The translations under genes were made by a program, and so were the position numbers. The notes under the pieces are model-generated. The model saw only the letters and a list, made by a program, of their open reading frames with translations. It did no database searches and was not told where the DNA came from. This document shows, piece after piece, positions 5,295-19,660 of a stretch of DNA of 64,000 nt (positions are counted from its first letter, which is position 1; every line of letters starts with the position of its first letter). This DNA comes from Sphaerochaeta halotolerans (GTDB lineage Bacteria > Spirochaetota > Spirochaetia > Sphaerochaetales > Sphaerochaetaceae). Location: assembly GCF_003429665.1 (NCBI RefSeq), contig NZ_QUWK01000006.1, forward strand, positions 1-64,000, written 5' to 3'.

Positions 5295-5747
5295 CTATTC
5301 CATGAACAGCCGTACCACCTCATCACTATCCCTGGCTTGCTCCAGCATTCGTCTGAATACCTGGCTTGTGCAACTTCGGGCAATGGAAGCAAGCAATTCA
5401 ACATGCGCGGAAGCTTCCTTTGAAGGAGCCAACACCAAGAAAAAGATTCTGCTCTTCTGTCCATCTGGCGCATCAAATTCAACAGGTAATCTGCTTATGC
5501 CAACCACCAGAGAAACATGTTCCACCACATCACTCTTTGCATGCGGGATTGCAATTCCGTTACCGATGCCGGTGGAGCCGAGACTCTCTCGATCAAGGAC
5601 AGCGTTCAAAACATCTTCAAACTGCTTAGCTGAATACCCTTTTGCTTTCGCCATCACTTCAACAAGTTCCGTAATCACACCCTGTTTGTCGGTGTGCATG
5701 AGGGGCACCTTCACCAAGTTTCTGTCCAATACATCCAGTACATTCAT
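5295..5747 (-). CDS. PTS EIIA type-2 (fructose/nitrogen) domain protein
   Basis: A single EIIA domain of 150 residues from the mannitol/fructose/Ntr family. The phosphorylatable histidine is H69 in GNGIAIPHAKSD, the family signature. An in-frame extension to 5792 exists, but the ATG at 5747 has AAGGAGC upstream and gives a normal EIIA length. No sugar-specific EIIB or EIIC is in the window, so it looks like a regulatory (PtsN-like) EIIA that reports PTS phosphorylation state. It begins 10 nt after the stop of the UspA gene and is the last gene of the V-ATPase operon, suggesting co-expression of ion pumping with a PTS-linked signal. Its target is unknown. Confidence 0.88.
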   Translation of the reverse strand: MNVLDVLDRNLVKVPLMHTDKQGVITELVEVMAKAKGYSAKQFEDVLNAVLDRESLGSTGIGNGIAIPHAKSDVVEHVSLVVGISRLPVEFDAPDGQKSRIFFLVLAPSKEASAHVELLASIARSCTSQVFRRMLEQARDSDEVVRLFME

Positions 5748-5757
5748 GCAAAGCTCC

Positions 5758-6240
5758 TTATGCTTCAAATTCCAGCCAGATATCATCATCATCCCTGACT
5801 ACCAGTACAGGGCAAGGTGAGGTACGTAGCATCCTGTCAGTCTCACTGGCAAGCTCCTCTCGTCGAGAACGGATATCCGTAACCCCTCCGAGCACCAGCA
5901 GATCAGCTTTTGAAGACTTCAACAGCTCTTTCATCACTATGTGCACAGTACCTTCCAGTTTTACCGTTTCTATGAGTACTTGCTTCTGCTGGGCAAGATG
6001 GGAGGCATGCCGTAGATATCTATCAGCATCCAATTGTAGGTCGCGTTGGTACTCATCACGTTCCACCGTCACGAATATACCCGCCTTGACCAATTCACTC
6101 AAGGCTTTGGTATTTACTACATATACGGCGGTCAGTTTTGCATCGTGTTCCTTGGCCAACTTGATGCCATACATTATGGCTGTCATCGAACTCTCTGAAC
6201 CATCGAGATACACGACGATCTGCTTAAACGGAACTCCCAT
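5758..6240 (-). CDS. Universal stress protein (UspA family)
   Basis: A 160-residue UspA-fold protein. The N-terminal strand KQIVVYLDGSESSMTAIMYGIKLAKEHDAKL and C-terminal ADLLVLGG...SPCPVLVVRDDD are typical. The usual ATP-binding pattern G-2x-G-9x-G-S/T is incomplete (GGVTDIRSRREELASET follows instead), so ATP binding is uncertain. The coding region overlaps the end of the V-ATPase D gene by 17 nt, so the two are translated from one message. Usp proteins beside ion transporters often modulate them, but no direct link to this ATPase is known from the sequence. Confidence 0.85.
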   Translation of the reverse strand: MGVPFKQIVVYLDGSESSMTAIMYGIKLAKEHDAKLTAVYVVNTKALSELVKAGIFVTVERDEYQRDLQLDADRYLRHASHLAQQKQVLIETVKLEGTVHIVMKELLKSSKADLLVLGGVTDIRSRREELASETDRMLRTSPCPVLVVRDDDDIWLEFEA

Positions 6241-6925
6241 GCAAACCTCCCTGTGATTTCATCGTATCATCATCTTCTGAAGTGGTCAAAGCCTGGACCG
6301 ATGCCTTGGCATTCTCCATCCTATCTTTCACTACCTTCAGCAGGATAAAATTCTCCCGTTCCTGTTCTTCAATGCGAGAACGCATCCAGGCAATAGTTTC
6401 CTTGTTTTCCGGAATGACAATCTTCTCCAGTGCATTTACCTTCCGTATCGTTTTCTTCACTTCTCTTGCCAGCCTCATGATTGAGACTTTCAGCTCGGCA
6501 AGCCTTCCCATCAACTGCAGTGTAGTTCGATACCTATCAATGGAAAGTTCACTCAGAATGCTGGTATCTTCACTGCTGAAATACGGACTATGGTCGGAGA
6601 ACGAGGTATTCACCTTGGGAACCGTGACCCCCATGACTCTCCGAGAGCTCAACTCAATGGAATAGTCAATATTGACGGCACCTGCCAGGTTTCCCACCCT
6701 CAGTCGCCCCATCTGCATGATAGCATCACTAAGCGAATTTTGGGCTTCACCTAGTGACTGGACCACCCTACCCTCATAATCAACTGCTTGGTCTACAAGT
6801 GTAAGGAGCTCAACCACGAGGATTGACCGTTTCTGGTCGAGCAATTCATACCCGAGTTGGGCAAACTTGAGGTCATCTATCAGTTTGAGCAGATTGCTCC
6901 TTGTAGGAGCAAGTGTAGTATTCAA
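6224..6925 (-). CDS. atpD: V-type ATP synthase subunit D
   Basis: Central rotor shaft subunit of the V1/A1 head, 233 residues. It begins with the family hallmark APTRSNLLKLIDDLKFAQLGYELLDQKRSIL and continues as a long helical coiled coil; the C-terminal helix includes KKTIRKVNALEKIVIPENKETIAWMRSRIEEQERE. It follows subunit B by 8 nt and overlaps the next gene (UspA). The last 25 or so residues are polar and less conserved. Subunit order B-D after A matches other bacterial V-ATPase operons. Confidence 0.95.
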   Translation of the reverse strand: MNTTLAPTRSNLLKLIDDLKFAQLGYELLDQKRSILVVELLTLVDQAVDYEGRVVQSLGEAQNSLSDAIMQMGRLRVGNLAGAVNIDYSIELSSRRVMGVTVPKVNTSFSDHSPYFSSEDTSILSELSIDRYRTTLQLMGRLAELKVSIMRLAREVKKTIRKVNALEKIVIPENKETIAWMRSRIEEQERENFILLKVVKDRMENAKASVQALTTSEDDDTMKSQGGLHGSSV

Positions 6926-6933
6926 AACTCCTC

Positions 6934-8355
6934 CTATCTGCCGTAATGTTCGGCAATCTCCTCATCACTAAGACGCTGCAACTCCTCGGAAGGCAGTTTT
7001 CCTAAAGCATCCCAACCAAGATCAAGTGTCTGTTCAATACTTCGATCCTCATCAAACCCTTGGTTCACAAACCGCTTTTCAAAGAAGTTTCCGAATTCAA
7101 GGTACTGTTGGTCGAGTGTGGTCAACTCCTCTTCCCCAATAACCGAAGCCAGGTTCTGTACGTCCTTCACATGACTGTAGGATGCAAATAATTGATTTGC
7201 TAGGTGCGGATGATCTTCTCGGGTCATCCCCTCCCCAATGCCGTCTTTCATTAAGCGCGAAAGAGAGGGCAAACAGTTGATAGGTGGATAGATTCCCCGC
7301 GCCTGCATTCCACGCTCAAACACAATCTGCCCCTCAGTGATGTATCCTGTCAGATCTGGCACTGGGTGGCTGATGTCATCATTAGGCATGGAAAGAATCG
7401 GAAGCTGGGTAATTGACCCGCTCTTTCCTGTTATCTTTCCAGAACGCTCATAAATCTCCGCAAGATTGGAGTACAGGTAGCCTGGATATCCTTTTCGGGA
7501 CGGAATCTCACCACGCATGGTGCCAATCTCTCTCAATGACTCACAGTAGTTTGTCATATCAGTCATAATAACCAGTACCTGTTTGCCCTTGTCAAAGGCA
7601 AGATGCTCAGCCAACGTCAGAGCCGTCTTGGGGGTAATGGTTCGCTCGATGGACGGGTCGTCAGCCAAGGAAAGAAAAAGTGCAACATTGTCCAGTACAC
7701 CACTCTCCTCAAAGCTATTCGTGAAGAAACGGGCTACGTCATGCTTGACACCCATGGCTGCAAACACAATGCAGAAATCCCCTTCACTTCCTCGGACTTT
7801 TGCCTGACGGGCAATCTGTGCGGCGAGTTGGTTGTGATCCAAGCCGTTTCCGCTGAAAATAGGAAGTTTCTGACCCTGAATCAGTGTTGTCATGCCATCA
7901 ATAACTGAAATCCCGGTCTGGATAAAATCCCTGGGATACTCACGTGCCGTTGGATTGATAGGTACCCCATTCACATCCCGCTCGGCAAAACCGTGTATGG
8001 TACCTGACCCGTCTCTGCTCTTTCCAAGTCCGTTCATAACCCGACCAAGCATTTGCTCTGAAACAGGCAATGTGAGGGGTTCTCCCATGAACCGCATACC
8101 GGTACCAGGAAGTGTCAGGCTGTCAGTTCCCTCAAAGACTTGGACGACGACAACCTCATCACTGGTGTCGAGTACCTGCCCTGAACGGCGTGCACCATCA
8201 GGAGTAACTACCTCAACCAACTCTCCAAAACCGACCGGATGGGTATTACGCATATATACCAATGGTCCATCAATCCTGCTAGCCCCACGGTATTCCCTAC
8301 CGCTTAATAGCCTCCGATCACTTTGGGCCATCAATGATTCAGTATTAGTTTTCAT
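6934..8355 (-). CDS. atpB: V-type ATP synthase subunit B
   Basis: Non-catalytic nucleotide-binding subunit of the A3B3 ring, 473 residues from the chosen start. Visible family blocks are [18 protein letters not shown] in place of a true P-loop, and a C-terminal part ending [20 protein letters not shown]. The frame extends to 8388, but the ATG at 8355 is preceded by GGAGGA and the resulting 11-nt overlap with the end of subunit A suits translational coupling. The lack of a GxxxxGKT sequence agrees with a regulatory rather than catalytic role. Confidence 0.95.
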
Positions 8356-10123
8356 AGATTCCTCCAATCTGATCAATGGAGCGCTCAAGCCTTAGCTGGA
8401 TCTTATCAATCTTATCAAGTTCATCTCCCTTGACGGTAAGACGCATCCTTGCCATCTCTTGGACAGCACGGAGTCTTCTTATCTTCACCATCGGAACTCC
8501 CTTGTTGATTGCTTCCATCCCCTTCTCATAGTAGGCAAGGATTACAGCAAGCATTTTTACCTGTTTCTCAACTGAACAGAACCGATCGACTTCATCAAAG
8601 GCGTTCTGCTGGAGGAATGCGGTCTTGAAGAGAGAACACACTTCCAGAATAAAGTTCTGGGTGTCGGGAAGGGCATCAGGACCTACAAGTTTGACGATCT
8701 GCTGCAAACGGACTTCCTTCTGCAATAAATCCATGATCCGCAGCCGGTTCTCGTACCACGATCCATCGCTGTGGTCATTCCACCACTGCGTCACATCCCC
8801 AAGATATTCGCTATAGGAGTCCAACCAGCTTATTGCAGGATAGTGCCGACTACTTGCAAGCTGTCGATCCAGGCCCCAAAAGCAACGTACGAATCGTTTT
8901 GTATGTTGCGTTACCGGCTCAGAAAAGTCACCACCTGGAGGGCTCACTGCCCCAATGATGGAAACAGAACCATCGCTTCCAGAAAGGTTTCGCATGAAGC
9001 CCGCCCGTTCATAAAACTGTGCGATACGAGTCGGCAAATAAGCTGGGAAGCCCTCCTCAGCCGGCATTTCTTCCATACGACCACTGAGCTCGCGGAGTGC
9101 TTCAGCCCAACGGCTGGTTGAGTCTGCCATGATAGCCACATGATATCCTTGGTCGCGATAGTATTCAGCCATCGTGATTCCCGTGTAGATACTCGCTTCA
9201 CGGGCACTTACCGGCATATTGGATGTATTTGCAATGAGAATGGTACGCTCCATCAATGACTGGCCGGTACGTGGATCAACTAAGAGAGGGAACTCCCTCA
9301 ATACGTCTGTCATCTCGTTGCCACGCTCTCCACAACCAATGTAAACAATGATATCTGCATCACACCATTGGGCGATGGAGTGCTGTGTCATGGTCTTTCC
9401 GGTGCCAAACCCACCTGGGATTGCCACCGTTCCTCCCTTCGCCAGAGGGAAAAGGGTGTCAATGACCCTAAGCCCTGTCACGAGAGGCTGCTTCAATGCA
9501 AGACGACTCGCTACTGGTCGCGGTATCCTGATCGGCCACTTCTGCACCATGGTAATTTTCTGTTGCTTTCCATCAGGAAGAACCAAAGTCGCTATGACTT
9601 CATCTACCGTATAGGATCCTGCGGGAACAATTTCACTGAGCGTTGCTTCTTGGTACTGGGGAGGAATAATAATCCTGTGTTGGACCCGGCTGGTCTCCTC
9701 TACTGTTGCAATGACCATTCCTGCATAGACGATCGTACCCGCTTCAACAACCGGAGTAAATTCCCATTGTTTTCCATGGTCTACCGCATCATAGGAAAGA
9801 CCACGTGAAATGAAAGCGCCACTAGCTTCCATGAGTTTCTCCAATGGACGCTGAATACCATCATAAATAGTACCGATAAGCCCAGGGGCAAGCTCGACGC
9901 TTAGACTCATACCGCTTCCATAGACGTTGTCACCTGGACAGATACCAGTTGCATCCTCATACACTTGGACAGTAGCCAATCCATCATAGAGTTTGACCAC
10001 CTCCCCGACCAGTTGTTGTTCACCGATACGGACCATTTCCATCATCATGGCATTTGTGATGTCCTTAACGATGAGAACCGGTCCATTTACTCGTTTGACA
10101 CGTCCGATTATTCTTTCTTTCAT
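8345..10123 (-). CDS. atpA: V-type ATP synthase subunit A (catalytic)
   Basis: Catalytic subunit of 592 residues. The Walker A loop GGFGTGKT is at residues 237-244, followed by [18 protein letters not shown] (Walker B/catalytic glutamate region), the [17 protein letters not shown] block and [15 protein letters not shown]. The A-type bulge domain (residues about 115-190) that separates A from F-type beta subunits is present. It overlaps subunit E by 4 nt (ATGA) and subunit B by 11 nt. With B, D and F it forms the soluble motor. Direction (synthesis or ATP-driven ion export) is not fixed by the sequence; a fermentative host favours export. Confidence 0.97.
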
Positions 10124-10716
10124 GAATGTTCCTGAATCAAAGACCTGATATCGCGGTCGAACCGTCTGAGACGGATTTCAACCTGGTTGTTGAATGAAAT
10201 GGTATCATCCATCGAGGAAACAATCACACCGAGGCCTTGCAATGGTTTTGGGTCAAGGTGCAAGGTAATCTTTGCACCAGTGGCTTCCTGCACAAGACGG
10301 GTTGCTTCTTCGAGATGTTCCTCTTTCACGGGACATTTACGAGAAGAGGCAACCTTGGCCTCCTTGAGATCCAAACCGATAGCAGCCTCTGCAATCCATG
10401 TGCTCAGATGCTTGGCAACCTTTTTTGCATCAAGCAGTTCGGTCACACGCCTAAGTACCTGCTGATAGCTCTCATCGATCTGTCGAAGGTTCGCCTTTCG
10501 CTTGGCACTTGCCAGATTAGCCTGTTTCTTCAACTCAATGTTCTTGAGTTTCTGCTCATGATCCTTCTGCAAGGAGGCTATCTCCCTGTCAATCTTGAGC
10601 TGGGCTTCCTCTGCAATACGTCCTGCTTGTTTTTGGGCATCCTCAAGCTTTTTTTGAGCAGTCAGCTCAGCTTGTTCCAAGATGCCTGAAAGCAATCGGT
10701 TGTCAGTTGTTTCCAT
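10120..10716 (-). CDS. atpE: V-type ATP synthase subunit E
   Basis: Peripheral stalk subunit of 198 residues. The N-terminal 110 residues are a charged helix (QAELTAQKKLEDAQKQ...) expected to pair with the G/H subunit; the C-terminal half is a globular domain with the typical GLGVIVSSMDDTISFNNQVEIRL ending. The TGA stop overlaps the start of subunit A as ATGA, and the gene begins 11 nt after subunit F. Confidence 0.92.
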   Translation of the reverse strand: METTDNRLLSGILEQAELTAQKKLEDAQKQAGRIAEEAQLKIDREIASLQKDHEQKLKNIELKKQANLASAKRKANLRQIDESYQQVLRRVTELLDAKKVAKHLSTWIAEAAIGLDLKEAKVASSRKCPVKEEHLEEATRLVQEATGAKITLHLDPKPLQGLGVIVSSMDDTISFNNQVEIRLRRFDRDIRSLIQEHS

Positions 10717-10727
10717 ACGAACTCATC

Positions 10728-11030
10728 CTACAATGATACCCCAATCGCTTTATTGACCAGGGCACGCAAGTCTGTACCTCCCTCTTTTGAACGGGGGGAA
10801 GGTATTTCCACAACAAGGGGGAAGGATTCGGAAAATAAAAACTGGTCCACAATAGGCCTGATCATATTTGCAACCTCATCTGTAATGATGATGATGCCAT
10901 TCTGTGAATCTTCCACCGCCTTGTCCCAGGCTCGTTTGGCCTGTTGTGCATTTGTCGCTTCCATGCCGAACACACCAACAAGGGAAAATCCAAGTACGGT
11001 ATCTTCGTCACCGATGACAAAATATTTCAT
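10728..11030 (-). CDS. atpF: V-type ATP synthase subunit F
   Basis: Small rotor subunit of 100 residues. It starts MKYFVIGDEDTVLGFSLVGV, the family signature, and contains GIIIITDEVANMIRP and LVVEIPSP. It sits 3 nt after the end of subunit K and is translated with its neighbours. It is expected to bind subunit D at the shaft base. Confidence 0.92.
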   Translation of the reverse strand: MKYFVIGDEDTVLGFSLVGVFGMEATNAQQAKRAWDKAVEDSQNGIIIITDEVANMIRPIVDQFLFSESFPLVVEIPSPRSKEGGTDLRALVNKAIGVSL

Positions 11031-11033
11031 CGA

Positions 11034-11381
11034 TTATACCTTTCCAAGGATCATCAAACTGGTGATAAATCCAAAGACAACCAGACCTTCAGCAAGTGCT
11101 ATGAAGATCAAAGCTTGGCTGGCAATCTCAGGACGCTCACTGATGGCACCCATGGCGGCACTTCCAACCTTACCAATAGCCATACCGGCAGCCAATGCAC
11201 CAAGACCAAAAGCCAATGCTGCACTAAAACATACCAGAGCGAGATTGTAATCACCACGAGTGGCAGCCTCAGTGGTTGCAGCATAGGCGCTGGGTGCGAA
11301 GATGAAGCCGCTTGCAAGAAGCAGAAGTGCTGTTGCTACAAAGGTCATCGATACTTTTCTTCTGAATGCGATGTTGGTCAT
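11034..11381 (-). CDS. atpK: V-type ATP synthase subunit K (membrane ring)
   Basis: Proteolipid of the membrane ion-translocating ring, 115 residues. A single hairpin of two transmembrane helices is clear: FSAALAFGLGALAAGMAIG, a short loop with SERPE, then ALIFIALAEGLVVFGFI, where the glutamate is the ion-binding carboxylate. In front is an additional hydrophobic segment (VATALLLLASGFIFAPSAYA) that looks like a cleavable signal peptide with an AYA-A site. A glutamine at ASQALIF and the residues near the glutamate may bear on Na+ versus H+ choice, but the specificity cannot be assigned. A GAGGGT box precedes the ATG. Confidence 0.93.
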   Translation of the reverse strand: MTNIAFRRKVSMTFVATALLLLASGFIFAPSAYAATTEAATRGDYNLALVCFSAALAFGLGALAAGMAIGKVGSAAMGAISERPEIASQALIFIALAEGLVVFGFITSLMILGKV

Positions 11382-11406
11382 ACTGTGACCCTCCTCAAAA
11401 AATTCA

Positions 11407-13401
11407 CTATCTCTGCTCGGAAGAAGAGTTCTTCAACCCAACTGGCTGATAAGCTACTCCCTTTCCGGTAAAATACCGTGAGAAGAACTCGTAATAGTTC
11501 AACCTCAAAGATTGTATTCCTGAACTTAATCCTTCCAGGACAATCACCAGGATATTTCCTAGGATGAAAATCACCACTCCGCCGAAACCATCAACCAAAG
11601 ACGAGAGTTCCTTAAATGCCTGCATCAGTGACGCATGTGCGATGCCAAGTCCTGCAACACGCATGAAGGAAAGGGTGTTGGAAAGATATCCGGTGAAAAT
11701 TTCCAGAATATCTATAAACCACTCCAGAATTGCGTCCATCGTCACGGTCCCTAAATCGTGGCGTTTTCCTCCTTGCTTAACTGAAATGTAGTAAGCAAGG
11801 AAACCCCTTATCAAGAGTAGGAAAAGGGAAACGGCAAGAACTGGGGCTATCCAAGGATCAGAAGGAAAGCTTTGATAGCCACTCTCTACAAAGGCGAAGC
11901 CCATATAGAGCCCTGTCCCAAAGAGCACACCTCCCAGCAATCCGTTCTTATCCAAGGTAAGCTGTAGATAGGATTTTTTCCTAAAAAGATTTATCCAATT
12001 CAACACCAAGCCCGTATAGATAACAATAATGCCGAACTTGACAGTCAGACCCAGAATATCATACACATCAGTGATTAGGGAACCATCCCCTCCATGTCCT
12101 GCTACTACTGCCTCATAATTGAACCAGATTGCAGGAAAGAGACTCAAGCCAAAATAACTGCCAAAAAGCGCTCCGAATATCATGGCAGAAATGCCCAGAT
12201 AGATCAGAAGATCAGTCAAATTCCGGCTGATCATCCCATCCTTCTTCAACGGATTCTTCTTATATCCATACTTTCCAAGCAAGGCAACCAATAAAAGCAC
12301 CAATCCCTGACCTACATCGGCAAACATCAGACCAAACATGCAGAGATAGGCAATCATGACAAAGATGGTAGGGTTGACCGAGCCATACTCTGGCGTGCTG
12401 TAGTTGTTTACCATTCTTTGGAATGGAGCAAGTATCTTGGGACTGGATACTGCTACAGGAACCTCATTGCGGGGAACCTGCCTAGCATCAGTCCATTCAA
12501 TGACACACTGTCCTTCACTTGCCTGTATGATCGCTTGCTCAACAACCTCCGCCTGATCAGTAGGGACCCAACCGGAGAAAAGCGTTGTATTGCGGGTATA
12601 AGCAAAGTAAGAGCGGATTTGGTCACTCAGTTCATTCAACCGAAGATTCGCCCAAATGGCAAACAACTGTGCTTGTTGGCTTGATACCATCTCATCAACA
12701 GCCTTCTCAATCTTCTCACGTTCTGCAAGTGCTGCATCGTGTTCCTTCCCAAGCTGGTCCTTGATCATGGAAATAGCTTGCTGTTGCAACTGGACATCAC
12801 TGGATTCCATCCAACCGAACTTTTCCAGAAGAGGGTCAACCTGCCCTACATCACGGCGAAGCGTCAGGGATATCCAGAGATCAGTATTTTCAACGCTTTC
12901 CAACAGGCCTCCAAAGGCAGCAATCTTTTCTTTGAGGTCCTCACTTCGGCCTTTTGTAATCTGCCCAACCCTGAGGTCAAGGTACTCTCCCTTGTCCTCC
13001 TTGATATAGCGTTGCATCTCCTCAAGGCCCATCACCATCTGGTTGCTCTCTTTCTGTTTCTCTTTCAGGGAGAGTAAGCTCGCAGTGAGGTCATCCAACG
13101 TTTTCTTGAATGCTTCAAGCTGGGGCTTTTCCAAGTTCTGCACATCGAGCACTTCACTGGTTGGTACGGTAATATGCCCCTGCTTGAGCAAGGCTTCCAC
13201 CCGATGACGCATATCTTGGAGAGCTGAACGGCTGACAGAACTCTGACGGAAGGAAAGTTTCTCCATTTGGCCAGGGTCAAGTTTGTTGATATGGACAAAG
13301 TCCAAGACACCTAGCCGAAGCAAGGATTTGACGACCCTATCACTTGTCTGTTCCAAAACCACAGCAGTAAGTAATTTCATTGGTCGTGTAAACAAATTCA
13401 T
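11407..13401 (-). CDS. atpI: V-type ATP synthase subunit I (a-subunit)
   Basis: Membrane stator subunit of 664 residues. The N-terminal half is soluble and rich in coiled coil (LKEKQKESNQMVMGLEEMQRYIKEDK and similar), and from about residue 340 there are some seven or eight membrane helices, including MIAYLCMFGLMFADVGQGLVLLL and the LSFMRVAGLGIAHASL helix carrying the essential arginine. The end contains the conserved ILVIVLEGLSSGIQSLRLNYYEFFSRYF. It overlaps subunit C by 4 nt and is followed by subunit K after 25 nt. Confidence 0.95.
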   Translation of the reverse strand: MNLFTRPMKLLTAVVLEQTSDRVVKSLLRLGVLDFVHINKLDPGQMEKLSFRQSSVSRSALQDMRHRVEALLKQGHITVPTSEVLDVQNLEKPQLEAFKKTLDDLTASLLSLKEKQKESNQMVMGLEEMQRYIKEDKGEYLDLRVGQITKGRSEDLKEKIAAFGGLLESVENTDLWISLTLRRDVGQVDPLLEKFGWMESSDVQLQQQAISMIKDQLGKEHDAALAEREKIEKAVDEMVSSQQAQLFAIWANLRLNELSDQIRSYFAYTRNTTLFSGWVPTDQAEVVEQAIIQASEGQCVIEWTDARQVPRNEVPVAVSSPKILAPFQRMVNNYSTPEYGSVNPTIFVMIAYLCMFGLMFADVGQGLVLLLVALLGKYGYKKNPLKKDGMISRNLTDLLIYLGISAMIFGALFGSYFGLSLFPAIWFNYEAVVAGHGGDGSLITDVYDILGLTVKFGIIVIYTGLVLNWINLFRKKSYLQLTLDKNGLLGGVLFGTGLYMGFAFVESGYQSFPSDPWIAPVLAVSLFLLLIRGFLAYYISVKQGGKRHDLGTVTMDAILEWFIDILEIFTGYLSNTLSFMRVAGLGIAHASLMQAFKELSSLVDGFGGVVIFILGNILVIVLEGLSSGIQSLRLNYYEFFSRYFTGKGVAYQPVGLKNSSSEQR

Positions 13402-14492
13402 ACCAACACCCCCCTGATGTACGCTTCTTCATACCCATAGTACTTCCCATTGAGAATGGCCTTCACCATACTAGTTTCTTCCTTGAAGAGGAAGAAGTAG
13501 GATAAGGAGAGCCCGATGGTAAAAGGATCTTGTGCAAGCATACGCTGGTAGATGGCTTTTCTCCGTTCAGCCAAATACCCTTCAATCTTTAATGTCTCAA
13601 GCAAACTCGCCTCATCGTAATTCGTACTTTCTCGATGTAACGGAACCGTTTCCTGCTCAAGCCCTGGATAGTAACGATTGATGATTGAATGAGGATTACG
13701 CTCAGATGCATTCTGCCTTAAATAAGCCTCAGTCTCCTTGCTTGATGCAACTTTGCCCCAAGGAAGCAGTAGTTTTTTCACAGCATCAGCATCCATATGA
13801 TGATACCATCCATAGCGTACCAACATGATTAGATTACGTAGGTCAATTTCCAACAAAAACATGGATGTAGCTACTTCTTCATCTGCTTTCTTAAGCGTTT
13901 TTACACAATCCATCAGATGTACATACCACATACGATCCAGTGCTGTTTCCAAGGGGAACAATCCTGATTGCTGCAAGTCTTGCTCGCTGAACGCAGTCAC
14001 TGTGGCATGGTATGGGCTGTCTTTCAGGGATTCTCCGACAACATCCCAGCTGGTTGCATTGATCAATGCAGTCCAATCAATGGGATAGAGGATTATTTCC
14101 TTGAACAAGTATTCACTGCGATGACGAATCGGTCGTTGCCGCATGATACTGCTGTACCAGAGTCTGAGGGTGTTCTTCAGATTGTCTATTTCAATTTTTT
14201 CAAGGAGATGGTTGATGAGATCTGCACTACTGCCCTCAAGATAGCGTGCAACCTCCTTGTACATGGAAATCTCCATCCCAAGCAAAACTAGTTCCATTTG
14301 CTGGAGGTCACCTGTTCGGTCGTATGCTTCGGCCACTGCATGGTATTTGGAGTCACGAAGCACCCCCACAGCTTCAACCAAGGAAGAAGCGTGCAAGAGA
14401 TTCTCAATAACCTTGCTTTGCCGCATTAAGCCAATCTTCGCCCGTAGCTTGGCGTTGATGAACCCATACAACGATACACGATCACTGCTCAT
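13398..14492 (-). CDS. atpC: V-type ATP synthase subunit C (d-subunit-like)
   Basis: Subunit of 364 residues that links the central shaft to the membrane ring in A/V-ATPases. It is all-helical, starting YGFINAKLRAKIGLMRQSKVIENLL, with internal repeats such as LRLWYSSIMRQRP and FLLEIDLRNLIMLVRYGWY. Sequence conservation of this subunit is low, so the call leans on size, composition and its place between the G/H stalk gene (4-nt ATGA overlap upstream) and subunit I (4-nt overlap downstream). Confidence 0.88.
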   Translation of the reverse strand: MSSDRVSLYGFINAKLRAKIGLMRQSKVIENLLHASSLVEAVGVLRDSKYHAVAEAYDRTGDLQQMELVLLGMEISMYKEVARYLEGSSADLINHLLEKIEIDNLKNTLRLWYSSIMRQRPIRHRSEYLFKEIILYPIDWTALINATSWDVVGESLKDSPYHATVTAFSEQDLQQSGLFPLETALDRMWYVHLMDCVKTLKKADEEVATSMFLLEIDLRNLIMLVRYGWYHHMDADAVKKLLLPWGKVASSKETEAYLRQNASERNPHSIINRYYPGLEQETVPLHRESTNYDEASLLETLKIEGYLAERRKAIYQRMLAQDPFTIGLSLSYFFLFKEETSMVKAILNGKYYGYEEAYIRGVLV

Positions 14493-14818
14493 TTGTGTTC
14501 CAGAAAAGCATCAAAATCGGTTTTGCAAACTTGCTCTACGATTGCATGTGCGATGGTGTCAAGGGTTTCCCCTGAAATGTTGCTGGAGATATTCAAGCTC
14601 TCTTCATACTCCTCAACTTCCGCTCTGGCCTCAGTTTCGGCCTGTTCCTGTAGTGCACGAAGACGATCACGCTCTTCTTTTACAGAGGAACGTATGAGTT
14701 CATTAGCAGTACTTTGGGCGGCGGAAATAATATCTCTGGCTGAATGTTCGGCATCTCTTATGATTTGTTGTGCTCTATCTTCAACCGATAATACATCGTT
14801 GATTATATCGCTACGCAC
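14489..14818 (-). CDS. V-type ATPase peripheral-stalk subunit (G/H type)
   Basis: First gene of the operon: 109 residues, nearly all one charged helix (IIRDAEHSARDIISAAQS...EERDRLRALQEQAETEAR), as in subunit G/H that forms a coiled coil with E. The start codon is GTG, supported by AGGAAG 7 nt upstream. The stop overlaps subunit C as ATGA. Sequence identity in such coiled coils is weak, so the assignment rests on shape and position. Confidence 0.8.
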   Translation of the reverse strand: MRSDIINDVLSVEDRAQQIIRDAEHSARDIISAAQSTANELIRSSVKEERDRLRALQEQAETEARAEVEEYEESLNISSNISGETLDTIAHAIVEQVCKTDFDAFLEHK

Positions 14819-14892: not shown

Positions 14893-17800
14893 CTAAGGAG
14901 CTGCAGTGACAACCTGCTGAGCAGTTGGATCGGCCGCCTCAGAATCAACCATGGAGTCGAACAGAGTTTCATCAAAAGCAAAATCATCCTCCGTCACAAA
15001 GCCATCCTGTTCAAAGGATTCAAACCCAAAATCACTCTCATCAAACGGCGGGAAGATGATATTCCAGAACGTCTCCTCATCCATGCGTTCCACTATTTCC
15101 AGAGTGACTTGTGCATCATATCCGGTAGCAAGCTCAGAACCGAACACATCCATTTCCTCTTCAACCTGCAAACCACTGGATGTGTCTTTAACAATGATCC
15201 GCTCCTCAAAGGCAGGATCAGAAACCCAGAAGTCCTCAAGCAACAAGACCCGGTCCAAGCCCAATTCCTCCGAAGAAATGTCAGGAACGACAAACCGGAC
15301 TGCATACCAGAGGTCATCCACTTGTAGGTCAAACAGGTAGGTACCACTCACCACTTCACTGAGGATGTAGCGTCCTTCTTGGTCAGTGAAAAGATAGAGT
15401 GCATCATTGCGGATAAGCTCTTCCTCTCCTGCTGCATTCGTCCGCACCTCATACACAGGTGAGGAGTATTGCACGTAGGGAGAACCATCAGCCATGTAGA
15501 GGACTCCGCTGACCGTAAAGGATGGTTCCATATCCAGTCTTGCAACAAAGGACTGCCTGCTTCGTGGGGTTAATTCATAGACAAACGAAGTACCAGTTGA
15601 GTACTCGCTTACTCCACTACTGAATACCACGATGCTGTTCTTGGTGTTGGGAGTTAGTGAATTATACAATGCGCTTCCAAGGGGTCTGCTTAAAGCAGAC
15701 GGTGAACTATCCAAGCTCCGTGCTATGGAGATATCTGAGTCTTTCAAGTCTCCGGTTGGTTTCACCAACAGGAAGGACTCCCCGACTGCCTTGCCAATGC
15801 CGAATGCACCATCTGCATACGCCAAGGCAGTACTTGCAGTGAAGGTGGTAGTCATATCCTGATAGGAGTTGCCGATTTGTTGCCGGAGTGAGAAGTTCGA
15901 AAGCTCACCACTATGGGCCCATGCCGCAACAATGGAGTGGTTCCTCGGATCTTCCAAGCGGAACCCGCTCAGGGAAAGATTGACACTATCATCCCCGGAA
16001 GGTCTCCAACTCATTCCCATAGAGGTTGATGCAGTGCCATCAAGGAACGGAGTACCGGAACGTACACTTGTGGAGGCATTGGTACTGAGCTTGGGACTGA
16101 AGGTATAGCTCCCTGATATTTGAGCAGATACAGTTGGATCGAGAGGATTACTACTTGGTCCATTAGCTGTAATTGAACCACTGAGTGAGAATCCTGGGAA
16201 GGGAGAAAATCCTGTAGCAAAGGACGCACTCCAACCTGGATACTGAATACTGGAGTTATAGGAGAGATTTCCCGAAAGGGTATACCGAACTTTCTCGGTA
16301 AAGCTACCTGAGTATGAGAGGGAGAACGAGGTATTGGTGGTAACAGGACTTCCTGCATCCTTTGCAGGAATACTATGGTTCACGGTCCCGCTAATCGTCC
16401 CAAACCCGCTCTCCTGAGGTCCACTGTAACGGTGGCTCAGACTTGCGGAGAACGATGGAGCCAACTTTGAAGCATCCAGACCAAGAGAAAGCTGCAATTG
16501 TGAAGTTCCCACCATAGTTGCAAGCACCCCATTGAACATACCACTGAAGATACCGGGGCTAAAGGCAATCTCACTGGTTAAAGTAAAAACATCCGTCAAG
16601 CCTGTCTGCTGGTAGTAGGTGGCGGTGAAGGCATCAGGGTGGTAGGAGAGATACTGATCATTGAACCAAGGAATACTGACATCGGCGGTGGCAGTGGTAG
16701 ACTTCTCCCTAGGAACACTGAAGCCGAAGCCATAGAGGCTATCTCCCTTGCCAAGCAAACGGTAGTCATAGCCCATGTCAACATACTCAACTCTCTCATC
16801 CTCTGGATGGTTGTCTGGAATGATGGTGATCTTAATCTGATTGGCGCCCTGGGTAAAGACAAAGTCCCTGAGGCGGTAGGTACCTGCCTGGAATTTTCGC
16901 TTGAATACCTCTTCCCCGTTGATGGTAATAATGACCTCGGAGGGCTCAACCAATACAATCCGGTATTCAAACTGATTACCCTTCGCTCGTTCGGTTCCGT
17001 AGGCATAATTCTTCTCAAACGTAATACCAACATTGGTATATGAGCCAAGATTCTTATTGCTCAGATTGGTTCCTACATGACCGAAACTCAGACGATGGCT
17101 AGATTCAACAAAGTCATAGAACCCATTCCAGGTTCCCGGGTTGAAATACGGTTGTAGAGAAGAAAGTGAATAGTAGAAGTTGAGACCAATACCGAGCGTG
17201 GAAATTCTGTTGGAAACTGAGAGAGAGAGCAGTTTCTGGTTTATTGCGGAGAAATCCGCATCATAGTCGAGCATTCCATAGAGGCTGAGCGAGCTTGCAA
17301 CCGCAAATTTGGCAGGCTCCAGCACGATTGCCCCACTAATGCCGTACTGCTCCCTCCTATTGATCGAACGTGAGGTAATACTTACCGTCCGCTCAGGCAT
17401 ATCTTCCAGGCTGAATTGGAGGTATATGGCAAACTCGGCAGCGTCATATCGGGCTTCAACATTGCGACTCTGCAATGCTTCAAGGGAGATATAGGCAAGT
17501 CCATCACCAAATATGCGTTGATTTGCTGCCTCCGTAATAAACGGACCTACATACTGCGCCAGTTCATTGGTATTCAAGAGTCGTTGCTCACCTACAAACT
17601 CTACCTCAATGTCTCCTGCAATCTCATTATTGATATAAAGGCCAAGATAATAGAACCCATCCTCATATTGAATGGCAGTATCTTTTCCGACAATAAAGAA
17701 ATCTGCAAAGAAATCATCCGTATACTCCTCTTCTTCAAACGACCCTCCGTAGAAGAGATCCCACTCTTCCTCGGTAAGAACCATAGGTTCAAATAGGAAG

Positions 17801-18204
17801 GGAGGGTCAGGAACCACAGGACTAACTGCAGCCGCTTTCGCAAAGGAGGGTACACCGGGTACCTTGATATATGCAGATCTCCAACCAAATCCAGGGAAAT
17901 GGGGAAATGAAAGCAGGTGTTGTGGAGGAGGGAGTTGAGGGATGGAATCCTCTACTGTTTTTGGAATTTCTGCTCCTGATACAATCGCTTGGGGAGGCGT
18001 CTCTTCCGATTTTGTTTCCTCTCCTATTGTCGGAGCTACCACAGTGGGTTGCTTAGGAGTCGGCCGCGCGACCTTGATAACGGAGGGCAAATCTTCTGTT
18101 CTTGGTTGGTTGAAGCACGTCCAAAGAAATGCAGAAAGAAAGAGGGCAACGAGCACAAGCAAAATCACCAGGAATATTGCGTGTGCGAATCCTCTTGCTT
18201 TCAT
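14893..18204 (-). CDS. Outer-membrane usher-like protein with extended termini
   Basis: A 1103-residue protein resembling chaperone-usher pilus ushers. After an N-terminal hydrophobic helix (residues about 8-31, ending LWTC, possibly a signal anchor or relaxed lipobox) comes a Pro-rich linker. About residues 160-290 resemble the usher N-terminal domain (YYLGLYINNEIAGDIEVEF). A long Ser/Gly/Thr-rich beta-barrel region follows, including the plug/strand segment VEPSEVIITINGEEVFKRKF. Near residue 900 the usher C-terminal signature appears as SGVLYMADGSPYV...YLFTDQEGRYIL. A very acidic tail of about 130 residues follows, unlike classical ushers. The chaperone gene is 39 nt upstream; no pilin is encoded next to it. 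Confidence 0.78.
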   Translation of the reverse strand: MKARGFAHAIFLVILLVLVALFLSAFLWTCFNQPRTEDLPSVIKVARPTPKQPTVVAPTIGEETKSEETPPQAIVSGAEIPKTVEDSIPQLPPPQHLLSFPHFPGFGWRSAYIKVPGVPSFAKAAAVSPVVPDPPFLFEPMVLTEEEWDLFYGGSFEEEEYTDDFFADFFIVGKDTAIQYEDGFYYLGLYINNEIAGDIEVEFVGEQRLLNTNELAQYVGPFITEAANQRIFGDGLAYISLEALQSRNVEARYDAAEFAIYLQFSLEDMPERTVSITSRSINRREQYGISGAIVLEPAKFAVASSLSLYGMLDYDADFSAINQKLLSLSVSNRISTLGIGLNFYYSLSSLQPYFNPGTWNGFYDFVESSHRLSFGHVGTNLSNKNLGSYTNVGITFEKNYAYGTERAKGNQFEYRIVLVEPSEVIITINGEEVFKRKFQAGTYRLRDFVFTQGANQIKITIIPDNHPEDERVEYVDMGYDYRLLGKGDSLYGFGFSVPREKSTTATADVSIPWFNDQYLSYHPDAFTATYYQQTGLTDVFTLTSEIAFSPGIFSGMFNGVLATMVGTSQLQLSLGLDASKLAPSFSASLSHRYSGPQESGFGTISGTVNHSIPAKDAGSPVTTNTSFSLSYSGSFTEKVRYTLSGNLSYNSSIQYPGWSASFATGFSPFPGFSLSGSITANGPSSNPLDPTVSAQISGSYTFSPKLSTNASTSVRSGTPFLDGTASTSMGMSWRPSGDDSVNLSLSGFRLEDPRNHSIVAAWAHSGELSNFSLRQQIGNSYQDMTTTFTASTALAYADGAFGIGKAVGESFLLVKPTGDLKDSDISIARSLDSSPSALSRPLGSALYNSLTPNTKNSIVVFSSGVSEYSTGTSFVYELTPRSRQSFVARLDMEPSFTVSGVLYMADGSPYVQYSSPVYEVRTNAAGEEELIRNDALYLFTDQEGRYILSEVVSGTYLFDLQVDDLWYAVRFVVPDISSEELGLDRVLLLEDFWVSDPAFEERIIVKDTSSGLQVEEEMDVFGSELATGYDAQVTLEIVERMDEETFWNIIFPPFDESDFGFESFEQDGFVTEDDFAFDETLFDSMVDSEAADPTAQQVVTAAP

Positions 18205-18243
18205 GCGAAAAACCTTTCTAGAACAAGGAGCAGAACACTCCTC

Positions 18244-19008
18244 TTAATTCGAGTATTTGATTGTGGCTTGATAGGTAACTCCAGGATCACGGGAGAGGCC
18301 TTCAGGCCAGGGGATGTTTTTTGTCACCGATTTCTTTGCAAGAATATTCATGCCATCAATGCCATCCAATGCTTCCTCTCCCTGCAGCACTACGGTATTT
18401 CCTTTGCTGTCCTTGACTTCCAATACTGCAGAAATCAACAACTGGTGCACCGTACCAAGATTGGCGAGGGTCACGGCCAAAGCAGGAGAACCATCTTCAA
18501 GACGTGAAGGAGTTACCGCTCTCACCCCAACATTCTCAACAATCCTTGTAGGCAATACATACAAACTTGTCGTGTAAATATAGAGAAAATTGAACATTCC
18601 CTTGTCTGAACTGTTCTTCCCCTGTGAATACGGAATCTGCTCTGCTTTCAAGCGAAAAGAGAGCTCATTGGTTACTGTTCTTGGACCCCGATACTGTACA
18701 CGCACTACCCAACTGCTCTGCGGGGGAACTACCAATTTATTCGGAACAATAGAGAAATATGCATCCGCAGGTTTATTAACCTCATTTCCCTGAGCATCTT
18801 GGTCACGAATAAGTGCTGATAAGCTGATGGCGATTGAGTCATTGCTATCATTTACAATGGTGTAGGTCTTGGTGCTCTCAGCGCCCGTTGGTTGGAACGA
18901 TTGTTCGAGTGGGGAGAACTGATAAGCAAAAGCTGAAGAAAGCAACAAGCAGGTGAGCAAGAGAAAAACAATGGTCCGTTTCACTCTCTTATTCTGAATT
19001 TGGTTCAT
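18244..19008 (-). CDS. PapD-like periplasmic chaperone
   Basis: A 254-residue secreted protein with a signal peptide (KRTIVFLLLTCLLLSSAFA). It has two immunoglobulin-like domains as in fimbrial chaperones: domain 1 carries FSPLEQSFQPTGAESTKTYTIVND and the F1-G1-like stretch SIVPNKLVVPPQSSWVVRVQYRGP; domain 2 has LAVTLANLGTVHQL. It most resembles the archaic/sigma branch rather than the classical FimC. Its partner is the usher-like protein just downstream in the same orientation. Pilin subunits, normally encoded in the same operon, are absent from the neighbourhood. Confidence 0.8.
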   Translation of the reverse strand: MNQIQNKRVKRTIVFLLLTCLLLSSAFAYQFSPLEQSFQPTGAESTKTYTIVNDSNDSIAISLSALIRDQDAQGNEVNKPADAYFSIVPNKLVVPPQSSWVVRVQYRGPRTVTNELSFRLKAEQIPYSQGKNSSDKGMFNFLYIYTTSLYVLPTRIVENVGVRAVTPSRLEDGSPALAVTLANLGTVHQLLISAVLEVKDSKGNTVVLQGEEALDGIDGMNILAKKSVTKNIPWPEGLSRDPGVTYQATIKYSN

Positions 19009-19093: not shown

Positions 19094-19660
19094 TCAAGAC
19101 AAAGCCATCCGCTTTAAGGCAGAATCAAAAGTCCCTTTAAGCATTGGAATGAACTGAAGCACGATGTCATCAATTTCACCAGGGAGTCCTGCTTGCACCC
19201 AATCGAGCAAAGTTCCCACAAACGCATGCTTGTAGAAATCAATCAGGAACGCAAGATCTTCTTCTGTTGTACCATACTCTTTTGCACGATCAACGAGGGT
19301 CCCATGGAGTAATTTCGCCATCTCACGGCAGAGATATCTGTCAAGCAACTCTCTTCCAAGACTATGATATATATTCACAATCATCGTCTTGTTTTCCACC
19401 AAATAGGTGCACATACTCCTTACTGCCGATTCTCCATCATCCCTCGTATGAATACTGGGATACCGACGGGCAAACTCTTGCCCTTCATTAATGAACAACC
19501 AATCAAGCAAATCGTAGATATCTCTGAAGTGGTAATAAAATGTCTGGCGATTCACTCCACAGCGATTCACGATTTCCTTTACGGTAATCTTATTCAAGGT
19601 GTGTTCCGCCATCAATTGCTTCAAGGATTCGGCCAGTGCCAACTTAGTCATCTGCGCCAT
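19094..19660 (-). CDS. TetR-family regulator (DhaS-like)
   Basis: A 188-residue repressor. The N-terminal helix-turn-helix reads ITVKEIVNRCGVNRQTFYYHFRDIYDLLDWLF (about residues 24-55), the form typical of the TetR_C_8/DhaS branch. The C-terminal ligand-binding half is all-helical with no recognisable ligand. AAAGGAGT precedes the ATG by 4 nt. A palindrome at 19691-19706 upstream is a likely self-operator. Its target genes cannot be told; it is transcribed toward the chaperone-usher operon and lies just upstream of that operon's promoter. Confidence 0.88.
   Translation of the reverse strand: MAQMTKLALAESLKQLMAEHTLNKITVKEIVNRCGVNRQTFYYHFRDIYDLLDWLFINEGQEFARRYPSIHTRDDGESAVRSMCTYLVENKTMIVNIYHSLGRELLDRYLCREMAKLLHGTLVDRAKEYGTTEEDLAFLIDFYKHAFVGTLLDWVQAGLPGEIDDIVLQFIPMLKGTFDSALKRMALS

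Follow-up and report, generated by a model that had tools for sequence, protein, structure and literature searches.

The window analysed here, a stretch of 64,000 nucleotides of Sphaerochaeta halotolerans, is the beginning of contig C46 in the 2.93 Mb genome of a Sphaerochaeta-like spirochaete. On its reverse strand it carries a PapD-like periplasmic chaperone gene and, 39 bp further along, an usher gene. It appears that the two belong to a non-classical chaperone–usher system in which the usher would be tethered to the inner membrane, span the periplasm and serve dispersed subunit genes, a reading held at a probability of about 0.7. It builds on computed results: homology and conservation, the finding of subunit genes, co-occurrence, and the count and pattern of hydrophobic segments. 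The pair is kept across the family Sphaerochaetaceae and across the class, and is therefore no chance pairing of open reading frames (ORFs). Relatives of the usher were found in 57 and relatives of the chaperone in 80 of the 297 genomes of a class-level search, and the matches in a phylum-wide sample were confined to the same class.

The chaperone is matched by the Pfam model PapD_N above its cut-off (7e-6). A signal peptide of residues 1–28 can be read from the protein, with cleavage between SSAFA and YQF, and the F1/G1 region is conserved in the alignment, including the proline that follows G1 in the superfamily (P153). A profile of 26 relatives has four matches in the PDB at E ≤ 0.01, namely EcpB (1.1e-4), two CsuC sequences (1.3e-4) and another pili chaperone. 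The window usher itself matched no usher model in Pfam or NCBIfam, and its identity was settled through its relatives. Among 33 aligned ushers, drawn from both Sphaerochaetaceae and other spirochaete families, 12 are matched by Pfam Usher, and the best match is 5.6e-17. A profile of 18 family ushers aligns with that of 15 other-family ushers at an hhalign value of 8e-70 over 748 columns with 21% identity. Ushers outside the family are mostly of about 800 amino acids (aa). The best PDB match of the usher profile is the plug domain 3fcg_A of the F1 capsule-anchoring protein, an usher, and six members show weak matches to TcfC. By homology, the protein is predicted to comprise the N-terminal domain, barrel, plug and C-terminal domain of an usher. 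As judged from sequence, both names given in the first-pass annotation are right, as are its coordinates and strand, and the system is of a non-classical type (archaic or alternative) because of the PDB, Pfam Usher and hhalign matches of the two proteins. Gaps between the chaperone and usher matches were considered as extra genes and rejected, as they correspond to the unaligned N-terminus of the usher. One relative (L001:1089-4403) has its usher frame split into two ORFs of 340 and 749 aa, through assembly error or decay.

It is the regions outside the usher core that set this protein apart. The first-pass annotation had described a membrane-anchored N-terminus, and a hydrophobic segment does begin at residue 9. 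Helices were called by hydropathy; in the 28 family ushers examined there is one N-terminal helix in 21, three in four and five in three, and never an even number. An odd number, with basic residues at the start, is required if the N-terminus is to lie in the cytoplasm and the linker in the periplasm. All 28 form one clade with a support of 1.0 in a FastTree phylogeny that holds no reference ushers of established clades, and the set of anchor, linker and tail is absent from the aligned ushers of other families in the class. The Pro-rich linker was likewise borne out, with about 135 residues and a proline plus glutamate content of 27%. In the 17 members in which it can be delimited by pattern scan, this stretch, which separates the usher domain from the last helix, has 104–224 residues and 18–48% proline plus glutamate. 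At approximately 0.3 nm per residue, a linker of about 135 residues would be long enough to cross the periplasm. It is followed by a conserved motif, DDFFADFFIVGKD, whose family form is DDFFADFFxxG. The N-tail of known ushers binds chaperone–subunit complexes (PMC9452303), and the position of the motif and the analogy with this N-tail suggest that it is probably the chaperone-binding N-tail. At the other end, usher homology stops near residue 998. The acidic tail reported earlier is real, with 27% aspartate plus glutamate in the last 110 residues, and its length is about 105 residues and not the approximately 130 that had been claimed. Of the 28 family ushers, 22 carry FWxxx(F/Y)P, or a motif close to it, in this tail.

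Export by a cleaved signal peptide is the usual property of ushers. The N-terminal segment could be a lipoprotein signal, or a cleaved signal peptide that is hard to recognise, in an ordinary system with an outer-membrane usher that has a long disordered N-terminal extension. A single helix near the N-terminus with lysine or arginine before it could be such a signal, and in many single-helix copies the segment ends in a cysteine (WTC, RTC, HTC), at which lipidation is possible. This explanation is nonetheless unlikely. The three or five helices of seven relatives cannot be a signal peptide, and no even count occurs. Compared with the signal peptides of the chaperones, the segment is usually longer, and most copies are without an AxA-like cleavage site. 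Such a site occurs in 4 of 21 single-helix ushers; among the chaperones it is present in 15 of 26, and among the subunits in 14 of 18. The pattern is crude, and of the 15 other-family ushers it is present in just 7 and missed in 8. The cysteine is missing in several single-helix copies, and LWTC and VRTC are poor lipoboxes; the lipoprotein reading of the WTC site was rejected as not general across the family. Hydropathy and the helix counts argue against cleavage of the usher N-terminus.

The candidate subunits of the system are encoded elsewhere in the genome. Profile searches seeded by the pilins of relatives identified at least five pilin-like subunit genes at three loci outside the window, with products of about 180 aa (single-domain) or 365 aa (two-domain). 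The single-domain proteins are homologous to the operon pilins of other families (hhalign 99.5%, 1.5e-22) and match the c2 arrays described below (4e-14). Their profile was compared with 177,635 PDB sequences and, at E ≤ 1, matched the CS17 pilin (1.8e-4), CsuE (0.0035), the CS1 pilin (0.063) and Caf1 (0.7), and nothing else; the best PDB match of the two-domain set is CsuE (0.004). The subunits of this genome are only weakly similar to SCPU (Spore Coat Protein U), the domain that makes up the subunits of archaic pili. Searches of the genome with Pfam Usher and SCPU gave no matches, so that its usher and subunit genes lie below the sensitivity of Pfam. The subunits are likely to be incomplete immunoglobulin (Ig) folds, since their sequences end at the F-strand motif. 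Many matches of the subunit profile at E 0.001–0.1 were discounted, as they cover the signal peptide only.

The subunit genes track the usher across the family, and the direction of this relationship is clear. In 61 family genomes, a subunit match at E ≤ 1e-6 was present in 38 of 45 with an usher and in 1 of 16 without. The Fisher value is 3e-8, or 8e-10 if genomes with c2 arrays are counted as positive, and is an upper view biased by the seeding of the profile from usher-positive genomes and by disregard of kinship. As to the setting of these genes, two Sphaerochaeta genomes have single-domain subunit genes beside a cluster read as TonB-receptor, ExbB, ExbD, ExbD and TonB-like genes (L164:12521-16280 and L191:11014-14700). 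Three further loci (L157, L158 and L159) hold two to five two-domain subunit genes at a conserved site, flanked by a glutamine-synthetase-like gene on one side and a UvrD-like helicase gene on the other; gene number and orientation differ among the species.

Families of the class other than Sphaerochaetaceae have the chaperone and usher genes in an operon that encodes a pilin (approximately 165 aa), the chaperone, the usher and a tip protein (approximately 310 aa) in this order, in some cases after a sigma-54-type regulator. An SCPU domain was matched in 16 of 17 of these tips (best 9.4e-13), and their best PDB match is CsuE. In one relative (L101:1064-5838), the only chaperone gene has four pilin-like genes and a gene for a tip around it, and the usher comes after them; at another locus (L097:7357-11174), a second pilin and three tandem two-domain tip-like genes follow the usher. 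In Sphaerochaetaceae the pair stands mostly alone beside a V-type ATPase cluster. One nested clade, made up of genus g3 and two g6 loci, has behind the pair an array of secreted genes that resemble subunits, c12–c15 and c2, which may be a divergent subunit set. At L077:561-6718, and also at L078–L082, the four secreted genes (c12–c15) and several c2 paralogues lie behind three- or five-helix ushers. The c2 paralogues have approximately 200 aa and are 17–27% identical to the first.

These operons and the unlinked genes bear on the substrate. The first-pass annotation had proposed a divergent surface-secretion machine exporting a non-pilin substrate, on the strength of a pair with no subunit gene in the window. 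That observation holds: six subunit profiles were run against the 433 open frames of the 64-kb window and found no subunit-like frame, the best match (E 0.03) being the N-terminus of the chaperone itself; the greater part of the family likewise has no subunit gene beside the pair. A divergent surface-assembly system outside proteobacteria, with an unusual anchored usher, is also upheld. A non-pilin substrate is improbable, as pilin-like subunits with matches to solved chaperone–usher pilins occur in the same genome, and relatives carry pilins in the same operon. The search for Ig-like subunits elsewhere in the genome, which located them at three loci, is in substance the refuting result, and the neighbours in other families, where a pilin and a CsuE-like tip share the operon with the pair, point the same way. 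A non-functional relic that has lost its pilins would suit a window without linked subunits and the relative with a split usher frame, and is very improbable given intact single frames in most copies from approximately 15 genera, the conservation of motifs ahead of the usher domain as well as in the tail, and the retention of subunit genes.

Several points weigh against a tethered usher that serves dispersed subunits, in addition to the crude cleavage pattern, the cysteine after the anchor and the bias of the co-occurrence test. The helices were called by hydropathy alone. A trustworthy structure was not obtained for either protein: the AlphaFold models of the usher core (from an alignment of eight sequences) and of the chaperone reached a pLDDT (predicted local distance difference test) of 33 and 53, respectively, and are too poor for use. 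Four usher-positive genomes have no clear subunit match, several subunit matches are weak outside the genus, and no direct link ties the usher to any single subunit gene of its own genome.

In the favoured reading of a tethered usher, the membrane topology, the assembly of subunits by this usher, the formation of a fibre and the purpose of tether and tail are inferred. The subunits, supplied by scattered unlinked genes to one chaperone/usher pair, would cross the inner membrane by Sec. The chaperone would cap these incomplete Ig-fold proteins and carry them through the periplasm to the usher N-terminal domain, where they would be received and donor strands exchanged, and the barrel would export a fibre or a short surface polymer. 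The hydrophobic segment or segments would stay in the inner membrane, with one chain running from there through the linker and into the barrel of the outer membrane. Its tether probably keeps the chaperone-binding domain near the exit of subunits from the Sec channel. The odds are about even that there is a whole family of ushers permanently spanning both membranes, in which a single polypeptide combines helices in the inner membrane, a linker across the periplasm and a barrel in the outer membrane. If true, such ushers would tie secretion at the outer membrane to the release of subunits at the inner one, and an ATP-independent process would possibly be linked to inner-membrane machinery, e.g., the adjoining V-type ATPase. 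A tethered usher would reveal that the pathway can be organised in a second manner, and would offer a natural means of testing if linkage to the inner membrane alters assembly. Spirochaetes would also join the phyla that have chaperone–usher systems, and one pair would be seen to serve many unlinked subunit genes, a pattern overlooked by operon-based annotation.

Table 1. Positions of the features discussed, in the window unless a contig or locus is named.
Feature	Position	Strand	Basis or remark
PapD-like periplasmic chaperone, 254 aa	18244..19008	-	PapD_N 7e-6, PDB profile matches, alignment
Usher, 1103 aa, with extra N-terminal anchor, linker and C-terminal tail	14893..18204	-	
Single hydrophobic segment, usher residues ~9-29/31	18118..18180	-	read as uncleaved inner-membrane anchor
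Pro/Glu-rich linker, predicted periplasmic, usher residues 30-162	17719..18117	-	
Conserved motif DDFFADFFIVGKD, usher residues 163-175	17680..17718	-	start of usher N-terminal domain; alignment and pattern scan
Region homologous to ordinary ushers (N-terminal domain, barrel, plug, C-terminal domain), residues 186-998	15211..17649	-	hhalign 8e-70
Usher plug domain, residues 421-480	16765..16944	-	PDB 3fcg_A, E 4.8e-4
Acidic C-terminal tail, usher residues 999-1103	14896..15210	-	absent from other-family ushers
Tail motif FWNIIFP, usher residues 1046-1052	15049..15069	-	pattern scan
Two-domain subunit genes, own genome	C3:15745-16830, C3:16923-18053		
Single-domain subunit genes, own genome	C49:46083-46616, C49:48332-48868, C47:165469-166128		
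TetR-family regulator	19094..19660	-	upstream, same strand; DhaS-like match below cut-off
V-type ATPase gene cluster	5295..14818	-	gene identities by sequence reading
Lone subunit-F-like genes, genus g116	L195:4233-4469, L196:10150-10422, L197:6001-6243		sequence reading

The pair is flanked by two conserved neighbours. A TetR-family gene adjoins it throughout the genus, and its product is a possible regulator of the pair. On the other side, the V-type ATPase cluster starts 74 bp 3′ of the usher stop codon with no terminator-like site between them on that strand, and this linkage is kept in many genera of Sphaerochaetaceae. In genus g116, a lone gene of 78–90 aa similar to V-ATPase subunit F follows the usher, and the rest of the cluster does not adjoin it. 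The cluster may be a historical neighbour of the usher. A functional tie is possible but unproven, on account of the persistence of the linkage in many genera and the lone gene of g116.

In the open-access literature, no paper linking Sphaerochaeta with ushers was found, nor was an inner-membrane-anchored usher described in the titles and abstract openings, which is weak evidence in both cases. Known ushers are confined to the outer membrane, and the folding of subunits and contact energy account for secretion through them (PMC9452303). Archaic (sigma) systems have been reported in proteobacteria, Cyanobacteria and Deinococcus-Thermus, with spirochaetes not listed, and alternative (alpha) systems in beta- and gamma-proteobacteria only (PMC4654587). 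The archaic Csu system of Acinetobacter (CsuA/B-C-D-E) resembles the other-family operons in their SCPU-type subunits and CsuE-like two-domain tips; the chaperone profile also matches CsuC, and usher relatives match Pfam Usher. It differs from the system of Sphaerochaetaceae, in which the subunits are unlinked or arranged as long divergent arrays, and a membrane anchor, a linker and an acidic tail are part of the usher. The alternative systems (CS1, CS17, EcpA-E) share the best PDB matches of the chaperone (EcpB) and of the single-domain subunits (CS17 major subunit), along with the weak TcfC matches of six spirochaete ushers, whereas the operon form of the spirochaete relatives, with SCPU pilins and a CsuE-like tip, is archaic. 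A further parallel is the P-usher of Pseudomonas, described as a component of the usher pathway fused to a transporter domain (Ruer et al. 2008, as cited in PMC4793230). In both cases a component of the pathway is joined to an additional module; in the P-usher this is an outer-membrane translocator domain, whereas the spirochaete usher would carry inner-membrane helices and a linker.

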